Virus record (IMG/VR): IMGVR_UViG_3300023178_000226
Location: 1 to 26,428 of that record
Strand: one strand, 5' to 3'
DNA from: a virus
DNA: 26,428 nt
Each line of letters begins with the position of its first letter. Within the stretch, counting starts at the first letter, position 1. Below are positions 3 to 22,768 of the stretch, piece by piece. A model generated the notes under the pieces. That model was not told where the DNA came from, ran no database searches, and saw nothing but the letters and a program-made list of their open reading frames with translations. The position numbers were made by a program, and so were the translations under genes.

Positions 3-65
3 GGCGAATTAAAAAGACGAGGTATTGATTTAATTTCATTTAGAGCAAAGAGGCCAATAGGATGA
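3..65 (+). CDS. C-terminal end of an upstream gene (partial)
   Basis: An open frame enters from the left edge and ends in TGA at 63-65. It leaves 20 residues that are rich in Arg/Lys and end in AKRPIG. The stop overlaps the next ATG (ATGA at 62-65), the usual translational-coupling pattern in this genome, which supports it as the tail of a real gene. Too little is visible to name the product. Confidence 0.6.
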   Translation, partial: GELKRRGIDLISFRAKRPIG

Positions 66-358
66 TTAACTTTAAACAATTTATTTCAGAAGACTGGCAG
101 AAAGTAAATAAATCTGATAATACTGATGGACTCTCACAAAAAGCTGTTGATGCTTATCGTAGAGAAAATCCAGGTTCTAAATTACAAACGGCTGTGACAA
201 AAGACCCTAAAAAATTGAAAAAGGGTTCTAAATCAGCAAAAAGAAGATTATCATTCTGCCGTAGAATGAAAGGTATGAAGAAAAGATTGACAAAGCCAGA
301 AAACGCTAGGGATCCAGATTCAGCGATTAATAAGGCATTAAGACGATGGAATTGCTGA
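62..358 (+). CDS. DUF6321-family basic protein with a capsid-targeting-like N terminus
   Basis: 98 aa, strongly basic in the middle and C-terminal parts. Residues from GLSQKAVDAYRRENPGSKL through the KKLKKGSKSAKRR stretch and the C-terminal NKALRRWNC match my memory of DUF6321, a small domain common in marine T4-like phages and of unknown function. The N terminus MINFKQFISE resembles the capsid-targeting sequence of T4 internal proteins (form MKTYxEFIAE), which the gp21 prohead protease cuts after I/L-x-E. I infer that the first 10 residues may be a packaging tag and the basic remainder a DNA-associated head protein. The start is coupled to the upstream stop by ATGA. The domain call is fairly sure; the capsid role is inference. 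Confidence 0.75.
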   Translation: MINFKQFISEDWQKVNKSDNTDGLSQKAVDAYRRENPGSKLQTAVTKDPKKLKKGSKSAKRRLSFCRRMKGMKKRLTKPENARDPDSAINKALRRWNC

Positions 359-361
359 TAA

Positions 362-1243
362 GTGACACAATATAGCACACAGACAAATGATTTTTTAAAT
401 AACAATCGTAATATTTACGAAGTTGTTTATACAGCAAATGGTGCTAATGGTGATATAGTATCAACAGATAATAGATTACCAGTTGATGCAGTCATTAAAT
501 ATGGTAGTTCAAATACTGTCAGTAGTGGTAATTGGGGTTTAGATGTAGCATTAGGAAATATACCAGGTTATAGTAACATTCATAAATTTGGTGCTGCTCC
601 TTCTATGTCACAAAACCAAACAGGCAGTGTTTGGGATAAAGATGATACAATATATCCATGGAGTGCATGGGATACAGCAGGTAATGTAACAATAGCAACA
701 ACCGCAGTAAATGGATCAACATCAACACTTGATAATGGTCTATCTGTTACATTAGTTGGTTTAGATGATAATTATGAAGCTGCAACTGAAACACTTACGA
801 TTAGTGGTTCAAGTGCAACAGGCACTCAAGTGTTTAAAAGATTATATCGTGCTTATGTAACAGATGGTGCGAGTTCTAATCAAACGCAGATAAGAGTATC
901 TCGTGGTGCAACAGAAGTATTGAGAATTAACATTGGCAAATCTCAAACGCTAATGGCAATTTATACTGTTCCTGCTGGTTATACTGGTTATTTGTTACAA
1001 GGAACCGCTTCAGTTCAGTATGGTGCTGATGCAACGGGTGATATGTTTGTAAGATATTTTGGCCAAGATACATTTAGAGTTGGCCACAGTTTTGAGGTTT
1101 CAGGTGCTGGAGGACAATACATTTATCCTTTCAGTGTGCCAGTGGCGATACCTGAAAAATCCGATATTGATGTAAGAGTAACTGTTCGTTCTAATAACGC
1201 TAGAGTTACGGCTGCATTTGATTTATTGCTTATACAGAATTAA
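362..1243 (+). CDS. Virion structural protein (beta-rich)
   Basis: 293 aa with a GTG start three bases after the previous stop. There is no signal peptide or membrane helix. The composition is Gly/Ser/Thr/Asn-rich with alternating hydrophobics, typical of a beta-sandwich virion protein. The second half, with RVSRGATEVLRINIGKSQ, YTVPAGYTGYLL and FEVSGAGGQYIYPF, resembles a conserved structural protein of marine T4-like phages that I recognise only by pattern. It sits between putative capsid-internal genes, which fits a head or tail surface component. The exact position in the particle cannot be read from the sequence. An AAAGGAG-type ribosome site follows it for the next gene. Confidence 0.6.
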   Translation: MTQYSTQTNDFLNNNRNIYEVVYTANGANGDIVSTDNRLPVDAVIKYGSSNTVSSGNWGLDVALGNIPGYSNIHKFGAAPSMSQNQTGSVWDKDDTIYPWSAWDTAGNVTIATTAVNGSTSTLDNGLSVTLVGLDDNYEAATETLTISGSSATGTQVFKRLYRAYVTDGASSNQTQIRVSRGATEVLRINIGKSQTLMAIYTVPAGYTGYLLQGTASVQYGADATGDMFVRYFGQDTFRVGHSFEVSGAGGQYIYPFSVPVAIPEKSDIDVRVTVRSNNARVTAAFDLLLIQN

Positions 1244-1261
1244 AATAAAAGGAGACTATAA

Positions 1262-2284
1262 ATGTCAGATAATAAAACTTTAAGAGCTGTTGCAGATGTT
1301 GCTCGAAGCATTATGGTGGGAGAAGCCTTAAAGGGTGACCAGCATAAAATCGACAAAAACAAAAACAACAAGATTGATGCTCATGATTTTGAAATGTTAA
1401 GAAAAGAAAAGGACATCAAAGAGGAAAAAGTTGAATGTTCTAAATGTAATGGTAAAGGTTGTGAGCATTGTGACAACAAAGGTTATCACATGGAAGAATC
1501 TGGTGGTAAAGACCATAAAGTGAAAAAAGAAGATAAATGTCCTGTTACAGGTGAAGATGAATGTAAATGTGAAGAAGTTGAACAATTAGATGAAAAAACA
1601 CCAACAAGACAACAAGTGAAACAAGCAATTGGTATTGCTCGTGACAAACGCTATGCTGGTGGTAATATGACAGGTGCAGTTAAGGCTATGAATAAAATTA
1701 ACAAAGGCCTTGCAGGTCATCCAAAAGTTTCTGATGAGTTAAGAAAACAAAACGAAGAAACTGAACAACTTGATGAATATAAACCACATGAAAGTGGCGT
1801 TACTCGTATTCAAGGTCGTGCTTATGGTGCTTCTAAACCAGAAAAACACGCAGTTGATACGATGAAAGGTCCAACTAGGAAGGAACTAGAAAAAATGGAT
1901 AAGAAAAAACCATTCAAAGAAATGTTAGAGTTGTATGCTGAAAAAGGTTTAAAATCATTAGCAGAAATGACAATGACAGAAGAACCTGACCAAGAGACTT
2001 ATGAAAAAGAAGTCACTAAGGCTAAAAAGAAAGCAACAGAAAAGAAAACACCCGAAGAAGAAGCTGGTGTAGCAAAAGCTGCTGTTCAATCAGTTAAAAT
2101 TGAAGAAGAAGTTGAGCAAATCAATGAAAGACCTATGACTGATGCTGAAATGGCAAAGCGTGAGGATATTGTTAAAGGTATGAAAAAAAGTCTTAATGGG
2201 TTTAAAGATAGATACGGTGATAAAGCAAAACAAGTAATGTATGCTACTGCTACTAAACAAGCGATGAAAGAGGACGAGGAATAA
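1262..2284 (+). CDS. Multidomain capsid-internal-like protein with EF-hand, Cys cluster and repeated I/L-x-E sites
   Basis: 340 aa, very rich in Lys and Glu. Segments in order: an EF-hand-like loop (residues 31-42, D-x-N-x-N-x-K-I-D, Asp at position 12 instead of Glu); a DnaJ-like Cys cluster CSKCNGKGCEHC (59-70) with more Cys at 93, 101 and 103; a helical segment at 112-165; and a C-terminal module with RYGDKAKQVMYATATKQAM, a pattern I have seen in many marine phage proteins. Acidic linkers end in QLDE (111), QLDE (172) and QINE (289). These match the I/L-x-E consensus of the T4 gp21 prohead protease, so the protein may be cut into separate pieces in the head. Ribosome site GGAGA is 7 nt upstream. 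The cleavage and packaging roles are inferred. Confidence 0.65.
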   Translation: MSDNKTLRAVADVARSIMVGEALKGDQHKIDKNKNNKIDAHDFEMLRKEKDIKEEKVECSKCNGKGCEHCDNKGYHMEESGGKDHKVKKEDKCPVTGEDECKCEEVEQLDEKTPTRQQVKQAIGIARDKRYAGGNMTGAVKAMNKINKGLAGHPKVSDELRKQNEETEQLDEYKPHESGVTRIQGRAYGASKPEKHAVDTMKGPTRKELEKMDKKKPFKEMLELYAEKGLKSLAEMTMTEEPDQETYEKEVTKAKKKATEKKTPEEEAGVAKAAVQSVKIEEEVEQINERPMTDAEMAKREDIVKGMKKSLNGFKDRYGDKAKQVMYATATKQAMKEDEE

Positions 2285-2288
2285 AAAA

Positions 2289-3953
2289 ATGTCTAAACGA
2301 TTCAGAGAATTATCACACAAACTAACTGAAGCTCAGGCGGTTGTTGAAGAAGGAAACAAACCAACCAATCCTGAACTTTGGGCTCGTGCTAAATCAATGG
2401 CTAAGAAAAAGTTTGATGTTTATCCGTCCGCATATGCAAATGGTTGGGCATCAAAATGGTATAAGTCAAAAGGTGGCGGTTGGAAGACGGTCAGTGAAGA
2501 AGTAGAACACCTAACAGAGTTATCACCTAAAACTTTAGGTTCATATGTTAAGAAAGCATCAAAAGATGCTTCTGACCATTCTTTTGACCATGGTGATGAT
2601 GAACATCGCCAATATGGAACTCCAGGTCATGATCCTGATGCTGATAAAGATTTGGAAGATAGAGAACGCAAAATTCAAAATCGCCAAAAAGGTGTTAATA
2701 CAGCTACAAACAAATTAGTTAAAAAAGCTACTAATGAAGAAGCAACCTATACTGAAGCTGTTGTAAGATTGAATCCAAAATCATTCTTAAAAGTAAAAGG
2801 TCCAAGTTCAGCTTATGATGCTGGTTATACAGCTGCTAAATCTGGTAAAAAATATGGCGAGAATCCACATCCTAGAGGTTCAAAAGAACATTTAGATTGG
2901 TCTAAAGCACATAACACAGCTCGTGCTAATAAAATTCATGGCGAGGAAGTAGATTTAGAAGAAGGTCATTATGAAGTGGTTTATAAACACCCACAATATA
3001 AAAACCATCGTGCTCATGTAATCAAAGCAAAAAATGAGAAACACGCAGAATCTAAATTTTTAAGTTATGGTAATCCATATCAAGTTAAAAGTGTGAGAAA
3101 AGTTCAAATGAAAGATATTGATGAAGAAGTAAAACAAATTGATGAAATTTCAAAACAAACTGCTCATAGTTATGTGAAAAAAGGTATGAGTAATCTTACC
3201 GGTATGGCTGCTGACCGTGCTTTAACAAAAGACAGAGCAGAAAGAGATGAACTTAATCGTAAGATTAAAAATAGAAAACAAGGTTTATCTCAAGCTGTTA
3301 ATAAGTTAGCAAAAGAAGATGCTGAAATACCCGCTCTTATGAAAAAACCTGTTGAAGAAGGCTATTACAAAACTCAACAGATTAATAAAATGGAAGATGA
3401 GAGATTAGCAAAACAGAAAAAGGCTTCAACAGGTTTTGCGAAAGGTCCGCATCCTGACCTTCTTAAAAAGGCCAGAGAATGGGATAAAAAACATCCTCTT
3501 CCAAAATGGCAAGATAAAACACCTAAGGGTTATGGTCCAAATGAAGAAGTTCATCCAGATACCTACAAGGCACAATCTGTTTATGATAATGCTCACAAAG
3601 CTGCTACTAAAAAAGGACACAGTGAAATGGAAGCACATAAACAAGCCTCTGCTGTGATGAAAAAGAAACATCCTGGTTTTTCAGCAACAAGAGGTGAAGG
3701 CCAAGTTTATAAAGAATCAGCTGCAGACCGTATGTTAAAGTTGCTTAAACAAAAACAATCCGAGAAAAATTGGGCATCTAATATTAAAGTGCCTGATTAT
3801 TCACAAGTAAAAAGAAAAGAACCTATTGACTTAAGTAAAGTGAATACGGTTAAAGAAGCATATAAAAATGCTAAAAAGAAAATGAAGGAAAAGCCCGAAA
3901 CATTTCAGGCTGAACCAGAATTGAAATCGGACATTAATAAAGATGTTCAATAA
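2289..3953 (+). CDS. Large capsid-internal-like polyprotein with DUF5872 and duplicated helical modules
   Basis: 554 aa, lysine-rich. After a short leader ending in KLTE (14), residues 24-67 look like DUF5872 (NPELWARAKSMAKKKF then GWASKWYKSKGGGWK). A helical module occurs twice (78-146 and 287-343; both have SYVKK, then an RxRKIxNRxxG-type stretch, then NKL). Residues 175-215 carry an AYDAGYTAAKSGKKYGENPH...GS..H..W pattern resembling ribosome modulation factor. Residues 227-275 form a small basic domain. Sites of the I/L-x-E type close most segments (LTE 77, LEE 225, IDE 279, IDE 286). I infer a head-packaged polyprotein processed by a gp21-like protease. It starts 5 bases after the previous stop. 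Parts are recognised by pattern only and no activity is known. Confidence 0.65.
   Translation: MSKRFRELSHKLTEAQAVVEEGNKPTNPELWARAKSMAKKKFDVYPSAYANGWASKWYKSKGGGWKTVSEEVEHLTELSPKTLGSYVKKASKDASDHSFDHGDDEHRQYGTPGHDPDADKDLEDRERKIQNRQKGVNTATNKLVKKATNEEATYTEAVVRLNPKSFLKVKGPSSAYDAGYTAAKSGKKYGENPHPRGSKEHLDWSKAHNTARANKIHGEEVDLEEGHYEVVYKHPQYKNHRAHVIKAKNEKHAESKFLSYGNPYQVKSVRKVQMKDIDEEVKQIDEISKQTAHSYVKKGMSNLTGMAADRALTKDRAERDELNRKIKNRKQGLSQAVNKLAKEDAEIPALMKKPVEEGYYKTQQINKMEDERLAKQKKASTGFAKGPHPDLLKKAREWDKKHPLPKWQDKTPKGYGPNEEVHPDTYKAQSVYDNAHKAATKKGHSEMEAHKQASAVMKKKHPGFSATRGEGQVYKESAADRMLKLLKQKQSEKNWASNIKVPDYSQVKRKEPIDLSKVNTVKEAYKNAKKKMKEKPETFQAEPELKSDINKDVQ
2520..2726 (+). repeat. Protein-level repeat, copy 1 (SYVKK module)
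   Basis: Codes for residues 78-146 of the 554-aa polyprotein. It shares with copy 2 (3147-3317) the order LS/IS-x-x-T-x-x-SYVKK, a charged helix with ERKIQNRQKG, and NKLVKK. The two are related at protein level but diverged in DNA. Each copy follows a predicted I/L-x-E cleavage site, so cleavage would release them as separate units. Confidence 0.6.
3147..3317 (+). repeat. Protein-level repeat, copy 2 (SYVKK module)
   Basis: Codes for residues 287-343 of the 554-aa polyprotein: ISKQTAHSYVKK, then LNRKIKNRKQG, then VNKLAKE. It is the shorter partner of the module at 2520-2726 and lacks the His/Asp-rich insert found there. It follows directly after the KQIDE site. Confidence 0.6.
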
Positions 3954-3962
3954 TAATTAATA

Positions 3963-3989
3963 TTGAGTGAAAACTAAATACATTATAAT
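3963..3989 (+). promoter_or_regulatory. Candidate promoter before the 4017 gene
   Basis: The 63-base gap after the polyprotein gene holds a perfect TATAAT at 3984-3989, preceded by TTGAGT at 3963-3968. The spacer is only 15 nt, so the -35 match is weak. A good ribosome site AGGAGA (4005-4010) follows, 6 nt before the ATG at 4017. This is the only sizeable gap in the structural block, which makes a promoter plausible but not certain. Confidence 0.4.
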
Positions 3990-4016
3990 TTAAAAATTTA
4001 AATTAGGAGAAAAAAG

Positions 4017-4358
4017 ATGGCTTTATGGTCAAACACAGATGCTAATACAAGTGTGCCTAAGTCCGCACCTTCATTAGTTAATCTATCAAACACACAGGCA
4101 AATAGTAATTTGCTTTATGCCAATACAACAACCGGTGCCTTTATCGCTGGTGCTAAAAAAGGTGTATTTGGTGTTGATACAACAGAACAAGGCGTTGCAA
4201 ATAATCCAAAAGGCGGTCACGCAGGATGGGTTATGAGAACAGAAGGCACAGGTGGTCGTTCAGGTCGTGTTCACATCGAAACTTTAGTTGCAATGGGTTC
4301 TATGACTGGTGATGGTGGTGCTGTTGCTAACGATGATGTAACATTTGCAGATAGTTAA
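4017..4358 (+). CDS. Small virion structural protein family of marine T4-like phages
   Basis: 113 aa, Gly/Ala/Thr/Asn-rich, with no membrane helix or signal. The core AGWVMRTEGTGGRSGRVHIE followed by TLVAMGSM is a pattern I associate with a short conserved virion-protein family in marine T4-like phages. A role as a small head or tail decoration protein is possible but not shown. It has its own strong ribosome site and a candidate promoter just upstream, which suggests high expression, as expected for an abundant particle protein. The start is supported by AGGAGA at 4005-4010. Confidence 0.55.
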   Translation: MALWSNTDANTSVPKSAPSLVNLSNTQANSNLLYANTTTGAFIAGAKKGVFGVDTTEQGVANNPKGGHAGWVMRTEGTGGRSGRVHIETLVAMGSMTGDGGAVANDDVTFADS

Positions 4359-4363
4359 GATAT

Positions 4364-4864
4364 ATGAGATTCAGACAATATTTGTCCGAACTCTATAACA
4401 TAGATCAAGGACAGGCGGAAAAGAAACACGAACCAACAAATGAGGGTTCGTCATCCATTTCTAATCCAAAGATTAGAGCGGAGATTAATCTACGCCTGCT
4501 AACCCAATTGGGTTTTTTAAGAAGTTTTGTAGGTAACCATCTTACTCCACATTCTGGCATACAAGCGATTCGTAAAGTGTTGCATGAGTTTTCATTAGAC
4601 TTACCAGCACTTTACGATATCGATCCAGAGGGTGATGAGTTAGCTATAGAACTTGACCAGTTTGGTCATGTTTTTAATTATGATGAAACCAATGAGTTTG
4701 GAAAAACTGACGAGGTTTCAAAAGATCCACAAGTTCATTACATTTATATAATATACTACTTGGATGATAGAGGACAATATGATTTTCATGCAGAAATTGT
4801 CGATGAAGAAGGTTTAGATTATATTATCAATGATGATGAGGAAGATGACGAAGATTTAGAATAG
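4364..4864 (+). CDS. Acidic protein of unknown function with a capsid-targeting-like leader
   Basis: 166 aa. The N terminus MRFRQYLSE again has the T4 internal-protein leader form with a predicted cut after L-S-E (residue 9). The body (about residues 30-110) looks globular, with helices around INLRLLTQLGFLRSFVG and IRKVLHEFSLDLPALYDI. The C terminus is extremely acidic (DDEEDDEDLE). I do not recognise the family. It lies 5 bases after a structural gene and 1 base before the next gene, so it is co-expressed with the head block. The leader suggests head packaging, as inference only. Confidence 0.55.
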   Translation: MRFRQYLSELYNIDQGQAEKKHEPTNEGSSSISNPKIRAEINLRLLTQLGFLRSFVGNHLTPHSGIQAIRKVLHEFSLDLPALYDIDPEGDELAIELDQFGHVFNYDETNEFGKTDEVSKDPQVHYIYIIYYLDDRGQYDFHAEIVDEEGLDYIINDDEEDDEDLE

Positions 4865-4865
4865 A

Positions 4866-5258
4866 ATGTTATTTAATGATTTGAATAATGATAATGTGAT
4901 GATATATGCAGTTAAAGCTTATGATAAACCAAATTGTATTATGAGCGAATTTAAAGATGATATGAAAAGATTCAATTATCTTAAAAGACTGTTTAAAAGA
5001 TATCGTAGTTTAGGTGAAATAAGAGAACGATTGGTGATAAATCATTTAGTTGTTCTTTGTAATGTTTTTACACCAGAAATAGCAACAAGGCTGTTATTTT
5101 ATAAAATGGCAAAAGAAGATTACTCGGTGTTGAAAACATACTTAACCTTTTTAAATGTTATGCCAAATTATGTAAGAGGCATTAAAGGTAAAGATATAGT
5201 TTCATCTGAAATACCATTAGACATTACAATAGTTAATTTGTTAAGAACAATAAAATGA
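4866..5258 (+). CDS. Conserved hypothetical protein (DUF7207-like)
   Basis: 130 aa, predicted mostly helical and soluble. The pattern AVKAYDKPNCIMSEF, then YLKRLFKRYRSLGEIRERL, then NHLVVLCNVFTPEIATRLLF matches a conserved protein I remember from marine T4-like phages, probably the family named DUF7207. Function is unknown. It begins one base after the previous stop and overlaps the next gene by ATGA. Constant co-location with virion genes suggests a head or assembly role, but nothing in the sequence proves it. Confidence 0.65.
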   Translation: MLFNDLNNDNVMIYAVKAYDKPNCIMSEFKDDMKRFNYLKRLFKRYRSLGEIRERLVINHLVVLCNVFTPEIATRLLFYKMAKEDYSVLKTYLTFLNVMPNYVRGIKGKDIVSSEIPLDITIVNLLRTIK

Positions 5259-5596
5259 TAAAAGAAGAAGAAAATCCAAGAAAAATGTATCATAAACATT
5301 TTGTAAAGGCTATGAAGGCCATGCCTGGAAGCCAAATACAAGCAAAACATAAAGCTGAAATGGAAAGATATAAAAAAATGATGGGTAAATCATTTATTGA
5401 TCAAGTTGCACCTAAAAAAATGGCCAAGTTTGATAAAAAGATTAAAGAAGATGCACCAACCGTAAATGTGGGTGGTGGTCAAGTGGCAGGTTTGGGTGTT
5501 GGTGCTCAAGGCGAACCCGGTATTAAAAAAAGAAAAAGACATGAAAGAGGTCAATTGTTACCATTTTATGCCTTTGTAAGGAGAAGAACAAAATAA
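5255..5596 (+). CDS. Basic conserved phage protein, unknown function
   Basis: 113 aa and basic. The N-terminal part is a charged helix (MYHKHFVKAMKAMPGSQIQ). The middle carries a Gly-rich motif, EDAPTVNVGGGQVAGLGVG then QGEPGIKKRKR, which I recognise as recurrent in marine T4-like phage proteins of this neighbourhood. The C terminus is Arg-rich (FVRRRTK). The start is coupled by ATGA to the previous gene, and the stop overlaps the next ATG (TAATG). Function is unknown. It could be another small head-associated basic protein. Confidence 0.6.
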   Translation: MIKEEENPRKMYHKHFVKAMKAMPGSQIQAKHKAEMERYKKMMGKSFIDQVAPKKMAKFDKKIKEDAPTVNVGGGQVAGLGVGAQGEPGIKKRKRHERGQLLPFYAFVRRRTK

Positions 5597-6099
5597 TGTT
5601 TGGTATTGGTGGAGTGATTAAAATCGTTGCTATCTTAATTATTGTTTTAGTGCTTGCAGGAGGTTTTTGGCATATTTCAAATCTAAAAGCAAACCTTGCA
5701 ATATCAGAAGCTAATAATGCTAAGTTAGAAGATGGAATTCAAAAGCAAAAAGAACTTGTTGAATTAATGCAACAAGACATTGAACAAATTCAACATATCA
5801 ATAGAGAATTACAAGATGTTAATACTAAAAATCAAGAGCAGTTAAAGCAACTGACTGATAAATTTAGTGTTAATGCAAAAGGTGAAAAAAGAGATTTTGG
5901 TGCAATTGCAGCCTCAAAACCAAAATCAATTGAGAGATTGGTTAATCGTGGAACACAAAATGTAGTTAGATGTTTAGAACTATTGACTGGCGCTTCACAT
6001 ACTGAAAAAGAATTAAATGCTAAATTGACAAGTGAGACTAACCGTGAATGTCCTGATATCGCAAATCCGAATTTTATTCCTACTGTTCCTACTAATTAG
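5596..6099 (+). CDS. i-spanin-like protein: N-terminal membrane anchor plus coiled coil
   Basis: 167 aa. Residues about 8-28 form one hydrophobic helix (IVAILIIVLVLAGGFWHI). They are followed by a long heptad-like region (about 30-90, rich in Gln/Glu/Leu) and a periplasm-type C-terminal part with two Cys. This is the layout of an inner-membrane spanin (Rz/PseT.3 type), which joins an outer-membrane lipoprotein to fuse the membranes at lysis. The overlapping lipoprotein gene in another frame (from 6032) matches the classic Rz/Rz1 arrangement. The family cannot be confirmed by sequence motif, because spanins diverge fast. It opens the lysis block. Confidence 0.65.
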   Translation: MFGIGGVIKIVAILIIVLVLAGGFWHISNLKANLAISEANNAKLEDGIQKQKELVELMQQDIEQIQHINRELQDVNTKNQEQLKQLTDKFSVNAKGEKRDFGAIAASKPKSIERLVNRGTQNVVRCLELLTGASHTEKELNAKLTSETNRECPDIANPNFIPTVPTN

Positions 6100-6442
6100 T
6101 TTAACGGGTTGTGCCACCTTTAAGTTATGGGGTGACGATGATGTTGAACCAATAGAGATACAGACAAAGGCTGTTGAAAGAACACCACTCAATCTGCCTG
6201 ACCCACCATCTATAAAACCAAGAACACCAACATGGTATGTGGTTACACCAGAAAATGTTGAAGAGGTGTGGGCTAAACTGAAAGAACAAAATGCAGATTT
6301 GGTTTTATTTGCTGTCACTGATGATGGTTACGAGGAACTATCAGTTACAATGGCGGAAATAAGAAACTATATAAAAGCACAAAAAGTAATTATTGTAAAA
6401 TATAAAGAATACTACGAACCAGAGAAAAAGGAAACAAAGTGA
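6032..6442 (+). CDS. Lipoprotein overlapping the i-spanin gene (probable o-spanin)
   Basis: 136 aa from GTG 6032, or 132 aa from the in-frame GTG at 6044. A hydrophobic signal ends in the lipobox LTGC (residues 22-25), so the mature protein should be lipid-anchored at Cys25. The first 68 bases overlap the i-spanin gene in the +1 frame, as in Rz/Rz1 pairs. The mature part is Pro-rich at first (LNLPDPPSIKPRTPTWYVV), as in many o-spanins, then has an alpha/beta-looking domain. It is long for an Rz1-type protein, so an extra function is possible. No clear ribosome site precedes either start, so translation may depend on coupling. Confidence 0.6.
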   Translation: MRLTVNVLISQIRILFLLFLLISLTGCATFKLWGDDDVEPIEIQTKAVERTPLNLPDPPSIKPRTPTWYVVTPENVEEVWAKLKEQNADLVLFAVTDDGYEELSVTMAEIRNYIKAQKVIIVKYKEYYEPEKKETK

Positions 6443-12025: not shown

Positions 12026-12274
12026 ATGGCAAAATCTGCTATACGATTTACAGCATCTTGGGATACCATAGGTGCAACACTTGCTGAAAATGTTACAACA
12101 GCTGACAGTGAACTTTCCGTTTCGGTTGTTGATATTGATGAAAATTCAGCAACAGCTGAAACATACAATGTAACACAAATTCCAACTTTTGTATTATTGG
12201 AAGATGGCGTGGAAGTTAATAGATTTGTTGGTATGAAATCCATACCAGAGATAAATGATTGGTTAAATGGATAA
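12026..12274 (+). CDS. Thioredoxin-fold protein lacking the active-site cysteines
   Basis: 82 aa, aligning without gaps over the start of the next gene product: FTASWDTIGA (8-17) against FAASWCQPCK (8-17). Both redox cysteines are replaced (Asp13, Gly16). The cis-Pro segment QIPTFVLLEDG and the C-terminal helix IPEINDWLNG are kept, so the fold should be intact while dithiol chemistry is impossible. There is no Cys at all in the protein. Ribosome site AAAGGAG is 8 nt upstream. It lies between RNR alpha and the active thioredoxin. It may be a binding partner of RNR or a decoy or assembly factor; function unknown. Confidence 0.8.
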   Translation: MAKSAIRFTASWDTIGATLAENVTTADSELSVSVVDIDENSATAETYNVTQIPTFVLLEDGVEVNRFVGMKSIPEINDWLNG

Positions 12275-12284
12275 GAGGAACTAA

Positions 12285-12533
12285 ATGAGCAAAAAGATTT
12301 TAAAGTTTGCAGCTTCTTGGTGTCAGCCATGTAAAATGCTGAGCAAGACAATTGCAGGAATGGAAATAGAAACACAAATTGAAGAAATTGACATTGACGA
12401 ACAGGAAGAATTAGCAATACAGTATCAAATTCGTTCAGTACCAACTCTAGTTATGTTAGATGATGATAAAGAGGTAAAACGAGTAACAGGTATGCAATCA
12501 TCAACACAACTGGAGGCATGGATAAATGGCTAA
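12285..12533 (+). CDS. trxA: Thioredoxin
   Basis: 82 aa, short for thioredoxin (about 105) but comparable to small phage thioredoxins/glutaredoxins such as T4 NrdC. The active site WCQPC is at residues 12-16 and the cis-Pro motif SVPTLVML follows. The C-terminal helix ends LEAWING. It should reduce the C-terminal CxxC of the phage RNR alpha subunit after each turnover. It overlaps the start of nrdB by 8 bases, so it is made with the RNR subunits. It is a paralogue of the Cys-less protein just upstream. Confidence 0.92.
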   Translation: MSKKILKFAASWCQPCKMLSKTIAGMEIETQIEEIDIDEQEELAIQYQIRSVPTLVMLDDDKEVKRVTGMQSSTQLEAWING

Positions 12534-13740: not shown

Positions 13741-14076
13741 ATGATAACCATTGAACAATCTGCCACCGATAAAATCATAAACCTTATCCAAGACGAAGAA
13801 GACAAGGATAAAATAAAAGGTTTAAGATTATTTGTTGAAGGTGGTGGATGTTCAGGTTTTCAATATGGTTTCACATGGGACCAAGAAATAAATGAAGATG
13901 ATTTCGTGTTTGATTTAGAAGGCACGGAACTTAAAGTTATTGTTGATGCTATGTCATCACAATATCTACAAGGTTCAACTATCAAATATACCAAATCAAT
14001 GATGGCTGAACAATTTGAAATTAAAAATCCAAACGCTTCTTCAAAATGCGGTTGTGGTTCTAGTTTTGCAGTATAG
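13741..14076 (+). CDS. iscA: A-type iron-sulfur carrier (IscA/ErpA/SufA family)
   Basis: 111 aa, the standard size. The three Cys that bind Fe or a [2Fe-2S] cluster are in place: Cys37 in VEGGGCSGFQYGF, and Cys103/Cys105 in KCGCGSSF near the C terminus. The family delivers clusters from the IscU scaffold to client enzymes. Only 3 bases separate it from the membrane protein stop, and IscU follows 7 bases downstream. Which of IscA, ErpA or SufA it is closest to cannot be told here. A phage-borne pair of carrier and scaffold implies cluster building or repair during infection. Confidence 0.92.
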   Translation: MITIEQSATDKIINLIQDEEDKDKIKGLRLFVEGGGCSGFQYGFTWDQEINEDDFVFDLEGTELKVIVDAMSSQYLQGSTIKYTKSMMAEQFEIKNPNASSKCGCGSSFAV

Positions 14077-14083
14077 GAGTTAA

Positions 14084-14497
14084 ATGGCTTATTCAGATAA
14101 AGTTTTAGACCATTACGAAAATCCAAGAAATGTGGGTTCATTGGATAAAAATGATCCAACTGTTGGTACTGGTATGGTTGGTGCTCCTGCCTGTGGTGAT
14201 GTAATGAAGTTGCAGATACAAGTCAACGATGAAGGAGTTATCACTAATGCGAAGTTCAAGACTTACGGCTGTGGCTCAGCGATTGCAAGCTCGTCTCTTG
14301 TCACTGAATTACTCAAGGGAAAGACGCTTACAGAAGCAGAAACAATTAGAAATTCAGCAATCGCAGAAGAACTATCTCTGCCACCTGTTAAAATCCACTG
14401 TTCAGTTTTGGCGGAAGATGCGATAAAATCAGCAATACAAGATTATAAAAAGAAACAAAGTCAAAAAGACCTATCTATACCAGTTGTAGGAGTATAA
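14084..14497 (+). CDS. iscU: Fe-S cluster scaffold protein IscU
   Basis: 137 aa. Cluster ligands fall at the same residue numbers as in E. coli IscU: Cys37 and Asp39 (APACGDVM), Cys63 (YGCGSAIASSS), and Cys106 (KIHCSVLAEDA). The chaperone-binding motif LPPVK is at 99-103. HscA/HscB recognition is therefore kept, so it can work with the host cysteine desulfurase and chaperones, none of which is encoded in this window. The tail after residue 120 is somewhat longer than in E. coli. It follows the A-type carrier in the same transcript. Confidence 0.95.
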   Translation: MAYSDKVLDHYENPRNVGSLDKNDPTVGTGMVGAPACGDVMKLQIQVNDEGVITNAKFKTYGCGSAIASSSLVTELLKGKTLTEAETIRNSAIAEELSLPPVKIHCSVLAEDAIKSAIQDYKKKQSQKDLSIPVVGV

Positions 14498-21215: not shown

Positions 21216-21533
21216 ATGGCAAAAAAAGCATTAATTAGTTACATTGAACCTAGAGGTGTTTATGGGTTTCGAGTGGTTGATGTTGTGGAATCAGGTAATG
21301 AATATGAAACTTCAAATAATTTAGAATGGAAAAATTGTCCTGACCATGTTATAGCTGATGATTATTGGTACTCAATGCAATATAATCAATTCAAACTGTC
21401 TGACATTGGAAGTGCAAAACTTCCTGGAAATCATAATCCTATTCCAGATTTAGCTACAGATGATGATGGAAATCTGCTTGAAGAAGCGGAATATGATTGG
21501 GAAAATGAAACTTGGGTTAGAGTTACTTTATAA
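21216..21533 (+). CDS. Small tail-fibre-associated protein
   Basis: 105 aa, soluble, acidic, aromatic-rich. The pattern KALISYIEPRG, then YGFRVVDVVESGNEYETSNN, LEWKNCPDHVIADDYWYSM resembles small proteins found next to fibre genes in marine T4-like phages. The junction before it (AATATTAAGGATAT then ATGGCAAA) copies that before fibre 2. It may be a chaperone or an additional fibre component. Role inferred only from position. Confidence 0.55.
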   Translation: MAKKALISYIEPRGVYGFRVVDVVESGNEYETSNNLEWKNCPDHVIADDYWYSMQYNQFKLSDIGSAKLPGNHNPIPDLATDDDGNLLEEAEYDWENETWVRVTL

Positions 21534-21553
21534 TTTTTTTTTGAAAGTATATT

Positions 21554-22768
21554 ATGAAAACAAAAGATACGGTGAAGTTCTTTGAGCAAAACAAATATGT
21601 TCATCTTAAAGATTTTTTAGATATAAACAATTGTGGTGAACTTACACAAATACTCCAAAATTTAGTTGCAACCGGCCAAACAACCAAGGATTCACAATGT
21701 CCTAAGTCTGAGGCTATTCATGGCAACATTACCTTTGATACACTTCTTAATGATTTAACACCACACTTTGAAAAGGCCTGTGGTAAAAAACTATATCCAA
21801 CATATTCATACGCTCGTCTTTATAAACCAGGTGAGACGCTAACTATCCATTCAGACCGTCCAGCTTGTGAAATCAGTGCTACTATTACATTAGGGTTGCA
21901 AGGAAAAGCTTGGCCAATATTCATGGCCGACCCAGCCTTTGATGAAAGTGAGGCTGAGAAATATAAATCACAAGGCACCGGCCAATTTGAAAATATCAAA
22001 GTTAAAAATATATCAAAGGTGAATATGAGTGTTGGTGATGCTGTTTTATATCGTGGCATGGATAAAATACATTGGCGTGAAGAATTTGAAGGTGAATGGC
22101 AGGCACAAGTATTTTTACATTATGTTGACCAAGATGGTCCACACGCTGACCAAAAATATGATGGCCGTGAAAGCTTGGGTATTTCAAAAACAGATGTCAC
22201 ACAAAGAGATGGACAGAGGATTTTAACAGATGCTGCTGTATTTCAAAACCATTTATCACTCAAATTTTGTCAAAGAATCATTAAAGAATATTCAAAGAAA
22301 AAGCACACTAAAGAAGAACCTTACATAGGAGGTAGCGGTGATAGTGGTACTGTTGATAGAAATATAAGAGATGTTCAAAGATTGTTATTACCACAAAATC
22401 AAGGCATTGGTGGTATTCTTACATCAACAGCACTCAATTCTAATCACTATTGGTGGCAATATGATATCACCCACAGTAACCAAACAGAATTTTTAATGTA
22501 TGAACCTGACGGCCACTACAATTCTCATGTTGATACCTTTCATGCACATAGTAACGAAACACGCAAATTAACCGCATTGGCATTTTTAAATGATGATTTT
22601 GAAGGCGGTCAATTTTATATCAATGCAAATGGTAATCTGTATTACCCACCACAACAAGCAGGAACAGTATTAGTTTTCCCGTCTTTTATGGTACATGGTG
22701 TTGAACCTGTTACAAAAGGGATTAGATACTCTGTTGTCACATGGATGGTAGGACCATATTTTAAATAA
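21554..22768 (+). CDS. Double-domain 2OG-Fe(II) oxygenase
   Basis: 404 aa made of two tandem double-stranded beta-helix units. The C-terminal unit is complete: His325-x-Asp327 (HVD), His381 (FMVHGVEP) and Arg391 (KGIRYSVVTW) for Fe(II) and 2-oxoglutarate, as in PiuC/prolyl-4-hydroxylase types. The N-terminal unit keeps His99-x-Asp101 (IHSDRPACE) and a distal His173 (KIHWREEF), but where Arg is expected it has EWQAQVF, so 2OG binding may differ. Substrate unknown; such oxygenases are frequent beside fibre genes in marine T4-like phages and may modify proteins, DNA or glycans. The ATG is 20 bases past the previous stop. Confidence 0.85.
   Translation: MKTKDTVKFFEQNKYVHLKDFLDINNCGELTQILQNLVATGQTTKDSQCPKSEAIHGNITFDTLLNDLTPHFEKACGKKLYPTYSYARLYKPGETLTIHSDRPACEISATITLGLQGKAWPIFMADPAFDESEAEKYKSQGTGQFENIKVKNISKVNMSVGDAVLYRGMDKIHWREEFEGEWQAQVFLHYVDQDGPHADQKYDGRESLGISKTDVTQRDGQRILTDAAVFQNHLSLKFCQRIIKEYSKKKHTKEEPYIGGSGDSGTVDRNIRDVQRLLLPQNQGIGGILTSTALNSNHYWWQYDITHSNQTEFLMYEPDGHYNSHVDTFHAHSNETRKLTALAFLNDDFEGGQFYINANGNLYYPPQQAGTVLVFPSFMVHGVEPVTKGIRYSVVTWMVGPYFK

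Follow-up and report, generated by a model that had tools for sequence, protein, structure and literature searches.

A 26,428-base virus fragment (IMG/VR record IMGVR_UViG_3300023178_000226) carries two genes, 62-358 and 4364-4864, whose products are likely T4-type internal head proteins of a marine, T4-like member of the Kyanoviridae; judging from their N-termini and from the proteins of related phages, both products would be packaged in the head. The record is the window itself, as we call the whole stretch analyzed here. By its genes (a T4-type primase, NrdA/NrdB, ThyX by sequence, an Rz-like spanin, and DUF7207) and their order, it belongs with the Kyanoviridae, close to Pelagibacter phage HTVC008M and Methylophilales phage Melnitz. 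In both, the block corresponding to 62-5258 is flanked by the gp41 helicase gene on one side and the primase/ribonucleotide reductase genes on the other. The parts of the two genes are as follows.

62..91, plus strand: leader of gene 62, MINFKQFISE, a T4-type capsid-targeting sequence (CTS) with a predicted cut by the gp21 protease after E10
92..358, plus strand: mature DUF6321 module (PF19846), 88 residues, pI 10.6, predicted cargo
4364..4390, plus strand: leader of gene 4364, MRFRQYLSE, a T4-type CTS with a predicted gp21 cut after E9
4391..4864, plus strand: mature acidic protein, 157 residues, pI 4.3, predicted cargo

The T4 CTS is 10 residues long, with positions 4 and 7 serving targeting and positions 8 and 10 processing, and gp21 cleaves after L/I-x-E (PMC9026906). 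MINFKQFISE fits this register exactly (F4, F7, I8, E10), and MRFRQYLSE keeps the T4 spacing with one residue fewer in front (F3, Y6, L7, E9). A first-pass annotation of this DNA had proposed T4-like leaders for capsid targeting and gp21 cleavage on three genes (62, 2289, and 4364), as part of a single leader-bearing set spanning 62-5596. All three N-termini were located where it had placed them. For genes 62 and 4364 the proposal held, on the strength of register, conservation, gp21 in relatives, and virion mass spectrometry of S-CREM2 and S-SM1; for gene 2289 it failed, as the leader (MSKRFRELSHKLTEAQ, ending in KLTE) is off register and was rejected as a CTS. The wider set was likewise not supported, with 62 and 4364 the only window genes to match a tighter CTS pattern.

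How far such leaders depart from chance depended on the rule applied. The presence of I/L-x-E near the start, which the first-pass annotation had used, was at chance level in the window (10 of 51 genes versus 8.6 from interior windows and 8.3 from shuffles) and in both complete relatives (HTVC008M, 31 observed versus 30.7 and 26.0; Melnitz, 37 versus 28.5 and 30.6). A tighter CTS pattern selected only 62 and 4364 among the 51 window genes, against an expectation of 0.3-0.5; for the strict motif, ^M.{1,3}[FY]..[FY][ILV].E, the measured background rates predict about 0.01-0.05 hits in 51 genes. A scan of 260 loci (2.15 Mb) placed the strict motif at the start of 98 of 3284 distinct first-ATG frames, compared with 8 of 8379 internal ATGs (p = 9e-45), a roughly 30-fold enrichment. 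Among frames preceded by a Shine-Dalgarno-like sequence, 23 hits were observed, versus 0.22 when their N-termini were shuffled. Because these loci were partly collected through leader-bearing families and are kin by descent, whole genomes provide the fairer test. In the T4 genome (169 kb), the strict motif marked the gene starts of IPII, IPIII, and gp61.1 only, and in S-CREM2 a slightly relaxed motif picked six annotated gene starts. T4 gp61.1 (L284:18966-19130, minus strand), beside primase gene 61, is annotated as hypothetical and begins with the full CTS motif, MKTFKEFIKE followed by D.

Aligning the leaders across related phages, a check that the first-pass annotation had called for, revealed conservation in both families. 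The product of gene 62 (P1) is a basic, helical 88-residue module, and this DUF6321 module was examined in 80 IMG/VR loci that yielded 52 distinct contexts. It was preceded by E in all 52, with I/L/V at position -3 in 41 of them, versus 20% for other upstream glutamates. Modules that start an open reading frame (ORF) have 9- to 10-residue leaders of CTS form (MLTFIQFLEE, MISFKEFINE, MKTFIQFIEE, MKKFIQFIEE, and MLSFKEFISE); across the stand-alone proteins M1, F7, and E10 of the leader are invariant and F4 nearly so, one stand-alone form having a looser leader, MKITEFVTE. Where the module is not at an ORF start, it is the final module of a large protein, and in comparison with the P-TIM68 polyprotein the homology of the window copy begins at the predicted cut (slash), ISE/DWQKVN versus TNE/DWQKVN. 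In podophage HTVC023P the DUF6321 module lacks the leader, and gp21 and gp23 are absent too. A 109-kb contig (G003) with a looser leader is uninformative either way because both gp21 and gp23 are missing from it. In the open-licence literature, we found no paper naming DUF6321. Often directly following the DUF6321 gene is a family of ~100 residues (SINIxGDFNGNLYVN; L046:4279, L060:4284, L210:4758, L224:2765, and others) that carries CTS leaders (19 first-ATG hits) and has no Pfam match.

The gene-4364 family was compared in ten sequences, of which the most distant is 23% identical to the window copy. Six columns are invariant, among them F3 and E9 of the leader, and outside the leader the family diverges fast. 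Orthologues were located in Melnitz (21306-21701) and HTVC008M (113582-113995), among others; orthologue leaders include MKNFKNHIAE (Melnitz), MRFKNYLTE (L096), and MRFREYLQE (L222), and homologues lie directly upstream of DUF7207 in L096, L222, HTVC008M, and Melnitz. An AlphaFold2 model of the product (P6; mean pLDDT 65) left residues 1-29 disordered, at low confidence, and suggests a helix-helix-strands-helix body, which had no match in the PDB at E <= 0.001. For P1 and P6 alike, Pfam, PHROGs, PDB sequence, and PDB fold searches returned no function or fold match beyond DUF6321.

The protease that would remove these leaders was detected as gp21 (Peptidase_S77) in HTVC008M, Melnitz, Sf-CH8, P-TIM68, S-CREM2, T4, and 6 of 10 IMG/VR records tested; the propeptide of the Melnitz major capsid protein, gp23, appears from its sequence to end in FLSE/A, the same form as the leaders.

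Proteins with such leaders are found in virions of relatives. For S-CREM2, 52 of 219 proteins are listed in the virion proteome (PMC10665884, Table 3), and against that list 5 of the 6 relaxed-motif genes (hypergeometric p = 0.003) and all 3 strict-motif genes (p = 0.013) were present. The listed leader-bearing proteins are given below.

S-CREM2 gp6: S-adenosylmethionine (SAM) lyase, leader MKDFDSFLEE
S-CREM2 gp13: leader MKDLHSFLTE
S-CREM2 gp14: kinase-like, leader MKRFDAFLTE
S-CREM2 gp136: leader MQTFSMFFSE
S-CREM2 gp154: cytidylyltransferase, leader MKNFSSFLTE

A kinase reported from S-CRM01 virions starts with the leader MISFDQFLSE, at only 32% identity to S-CREM2 gp14. Sullivan et al. (2010) detected T4-GC190, a cytidyltransferase-like protein, in purified S-SM1 virions (PMC3037559); the GC190 gene lies inside a block syntenic with the window, its N-terminus is MKKFSAFLNE/A, and all 80 of 80 environmental relatives retain the leader when position 9 is left unconstrained. 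The list of S-CREM2 virion proteins also contains a homologue of window gene 62 itself, gp137 (59% over residues 8-98), with 4 unique peptides and 4.1% coverage (PMC10665884).

Several further proteins with or beside such leaders were observed. The SAM lyase family (PF23780; L264:3837-5081, minus strand, L280, L281, L282, and L283) has a CTS leader in S-CREM2 (MKDFDSFLEE) and AG-345-L05 (MKTFKEFLEE) and a degenerate one in P-TIM68 and S-N03. The S-CREM2 virion protein gp156 (L263:7013-7726, plus strand) contains a polymerase-beta-like nucleotidyltransferase domain (PF01909, E=0.00034). DUF6267 proteins (L006:13272-14528, L192:1609-2742, L002:478-1596, and L250:930-2105) have CTS-like leaders with the Pfam domain right after the leader, and in some of them a KxDG motif (VTVKWDGAPAI) recalls nucleic-acid ligases. 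A 262-residue protein (L016:2794-3582, plus strand) combines the leader MKTYKQFIIE/A with a YHGTS...GRAYVTTD stretch. That stretch resembles an ADP-ribosyltransferase, which could make the protein a counterpart of T4 Alt in marine phages; neither Pfam nor the PDB gave a hit, and the reading is kept as a lead.

A number of points weigh against assigning 62 and 4364 to the internal proteins. The motif was narrowed after the leaders were known, though in accordance with the published T4 rule, and in HTVC008M, among the nearest isolates, no real gene carries a strict-motif leader; its gene-4364 orthologue starts MKSFKDFQNVNE, off register. The virion mass spectrometry comes from relatives (S-CREM2, S-CRM01, and S-SM1) and not from this phage, no gene-4364 orthologue was found in a virion, and S-CREM2 gp137 is a leaderless polyprotein rather than a stand-alone copy of gene 62. 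Carry-over of abundant proteins could not be excluded by the S-CREM2 authors (PMC10665884); the targeting leader that these proteins share favors real packaging. Head genes, gp21 included, were not seen in the 26-kb window, and because the record is that window itself, gp21 could not be found in its own genome. Set against these points, head targeting of both products is well supported: because of the motif enrichment, gp21 in relatives, the S-CREM2 virion data, and the leaderless podophage, we assign 62-358, and very likely 4364-4864, to the T4-type internal proteins.

Under this assignment, the 9- to 10-residue leader, with its aromatics at positions 4 and 7 or one residue earlier, would bind the prohead core and draw the protein in. 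A gp21-type protease would then cut after ISE or LSE, as motif and protease suggest, and the mature basic DUF6321 module and acidic 157-residue protein would stay in the head with the DNA, probably to be delivered to the host along with it, by analogy with T4. The further suggestion of the first-pass annotation, a store of anti-host effectors, is plausible for the wider class because the SAM lyases of S-CREM2 and AG-345-L05 bear this kind of leader and the S-CREM2 enzyme is among the virion proteins; for the window it is a guess, and neither P1 nor P6 had similarity to IPI* or another known inhibitor in Pfam, PDB sequence, or PDB fold searches.

An assembly role is the strongest competing explanation, with an appreciable, if lesser, probability: P1 and P6 would be prohead-core proteins whose leader docks on the gp22 core and is cut by gp21, rather than effectors sent into the host. 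In T4, IPIII has been proposed to act in assembly, its mutant being defective in that process, and the core proteins gp67, gp68, and gp22 are themselves cut by gp21 (PMC9026906). No effector domain was recognized in P1 or P6, and in the podophage the DUF6321 gene is near the capsid gene. Opposed to such a role are the same leader on enzymes without an evident part in assembly (SAM lyase, kinase, and nucleotidyltransferase) and the fast divergence of the gene-4364 family outside the leader.

A second explanation starts from the neighboring modular proteins. Large modular proteins, too, contain DUF6321 behind [ILV]-x-E, so polyproteins may likewise be diced by gp21; it is possible, though doubtful, that it cuts the products of 1262-2284 and 2289-3953 at [ILV]xE linkers into packaged modules, with DUF6321 also traveling alone on a CTS. 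The relevant features are listed below; each linker is a candidate gp21 site by its sequence.

1262..2284, plus strand: modular protein, leaderless, with EEVEQLDE-like linkers between modules; sites after residues 111, 172, and 289
1571..1594, plus strand: linker EEVEQLDE
1754..1777, plus strand: linker EETEQLDE
2105..2128, plus strand: linker EEVEQINE
2289..3953, plus strand: modular protein, WAK plus two SYV-like modules; N-terminus not a CTS
2496..2519, plus strand: linker EEVEHLTE, directly before an LSxxTLxSYV module
3123..3146, plus strand: linker EEVKQIDE, directly before the second SYV-like module

A module of the 1262-2284 protein is also present in Melnitz, and relatives of the first module of the 2289 protein (L003 and L004) begin MSKK(K/R)L..PKPTNP, leaderless. 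In related proteins, as with DUF6321, modules begin directly after [ILV]xE (SYV in 8 of 8, WAK in 36 of 59, and CWPGY in 24 of 38 contexts), and some polyproteins have an internal CTS-like segment before a module, such as LSFKDFIAE/RCWPGY or, in S-WAM1, KSFKEFLEE before a SAM-lyase-like module. Total [ILV]xE counts were not above composition shuffles (7 versus 6.0 for 1262-2284 and 10 versus 6.2 for 2289-3953), so that the argument depends only on where the sites lie and dicing stays hypothetical; acidic interdomain linkers are also common. The low virion coverage of gp137 fits dicing but poor detection as well. Extended to marine T4-like phages at large, the sequences tentatively suggest, with no great probability, a swappable cargo whose small modules would reach the head in one of two formats: alone, behind a CTS leader, or as parts of polyproteins that lack one (window 1262-2284 and 2289-3953, P-TIM68, S-SM1 GC119, and S-CREM2 gp137). 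There, gp21 would dice the polyproteins at [ILV]-x-E linkers into many small proteins for packaging or injection, one gene would yield a set of effectors, and modules would switch format with the break at the cut site.

Coincidence, that is, short F/I/L/E-rich N-termini resembling the T4 leader by chance, accounts for the loose I/L-x-E rule and the 2289 leader but is very improbable for 62 and 4364, where it is largely refuted by the strict-register enrichment, family conservation, and the S-CREM2 virion test, with T4 as the positive and the podophage as the negative control.

The remaining genes of the block lack a CTS leader.

362..1243, plus strand: leaderless homologue of a virion protein, 33% identity over 240 columns to S-CREM2 gp176
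4017..4358, plus strand: leaderless MALWS... protein, by position and N-terminus the counterpart of S-layer-domain genes in HTVC008M, Melnitz, Sf-CH8, and S-SM1
4866..5258, plus strand: DUF7207 gene (PF23837), syntenic anchor, no leader

In the S-CREM2 data, gp176 was found in virions with 20 unique peptides, and the DUF7207 homologue, gp159, was absent from the virion list. Genes 362-3953 probably code for proteins of the virion or core that rely on no CTS leader. Downstream, 5255-5596 encodes a basic protein with IKE followed by DAPTVNVGGGQVAGLG, resembling leader-bearing proteins elsewhere (e.g., MKTFKQFVSEQPTNSVGNGG in L048), and 5596-6442 encodes the Rz-like spanin, with an overlapping second frame (6032-6442) that has a lipoprotein-like N-terminus and is probably Rz1. 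The regions 12026-12533 and 13741-14497 appear from their sequences to hold two tandem thioredoxin-like genes, by NrdA/NrdB, and adjacent IscA-like and IscU-like iron-sulfur scaffold genes.

If true, a T4-type address tag would explain the SAM lyase, kinase, and NMNAT-like nucleotidyltransferase in cyanophage virions, and a sequence rule would allow packaged, possibly injected proteins to be predicted from genomes. The role of T4-like internal proteins would become directly testable in other hosts; SAR11, OM43, Prochlorococcus, and Synechococcus are among those that Kyanoviridae infect. In the open-licence literature, CTS work was found for T4, giant phages, and bacteriophage P1, with none linking the CTS to marine T4-like phages; according to one review, cyanomyoviruses lack alt, and its text does not mention "internal protein" (PMC2984593).

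The closest known systems are T4 IPI/IPII/IPIII and Alt, which share with the proteins described here a leader of ~10 residues with aromatics at 4 and 7, I/L at 8, and E at 10, and a gp21-type protease (here in relatives). The T4 internal proteins are also small, P1 being similar in size and basic charge, and here too related proteins occur in virions. Unlike the T4 case, the mature parts are without sequence similarity to T4 internal proteins, P6 is acidic with a leader of 9 residues, DUF6321 is found in modular proteins without a leader as well, and cleavage and ejection are only inferred. The virion enzymes of S-CREM2, S-CRM01, and S-SM1 (PMC10665884 and PMC3037559) have the same leader form, occur in purified particles, and in the case of GC190 come from the syntenic block; they belong to recognizable families, unlike P1 and P6, for which no match of known function was found, and the available portions of the S-CREM2 and S-SM1 reports do not describe a targeting leader (PMC10665884 and PMC3037559). 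Head proteins of phiKZ and SPN3US likewise have removable N-terminal propeptides, an x-E cut, and a gp21-like prohead protease, and some of their propeptides are cut at several sites (PMC10052503 and PMC9026906); unlike here, the phiKZ cut motif is S/A-X-E, and the giant phages are not described as using the 10-residue T4 CTS.

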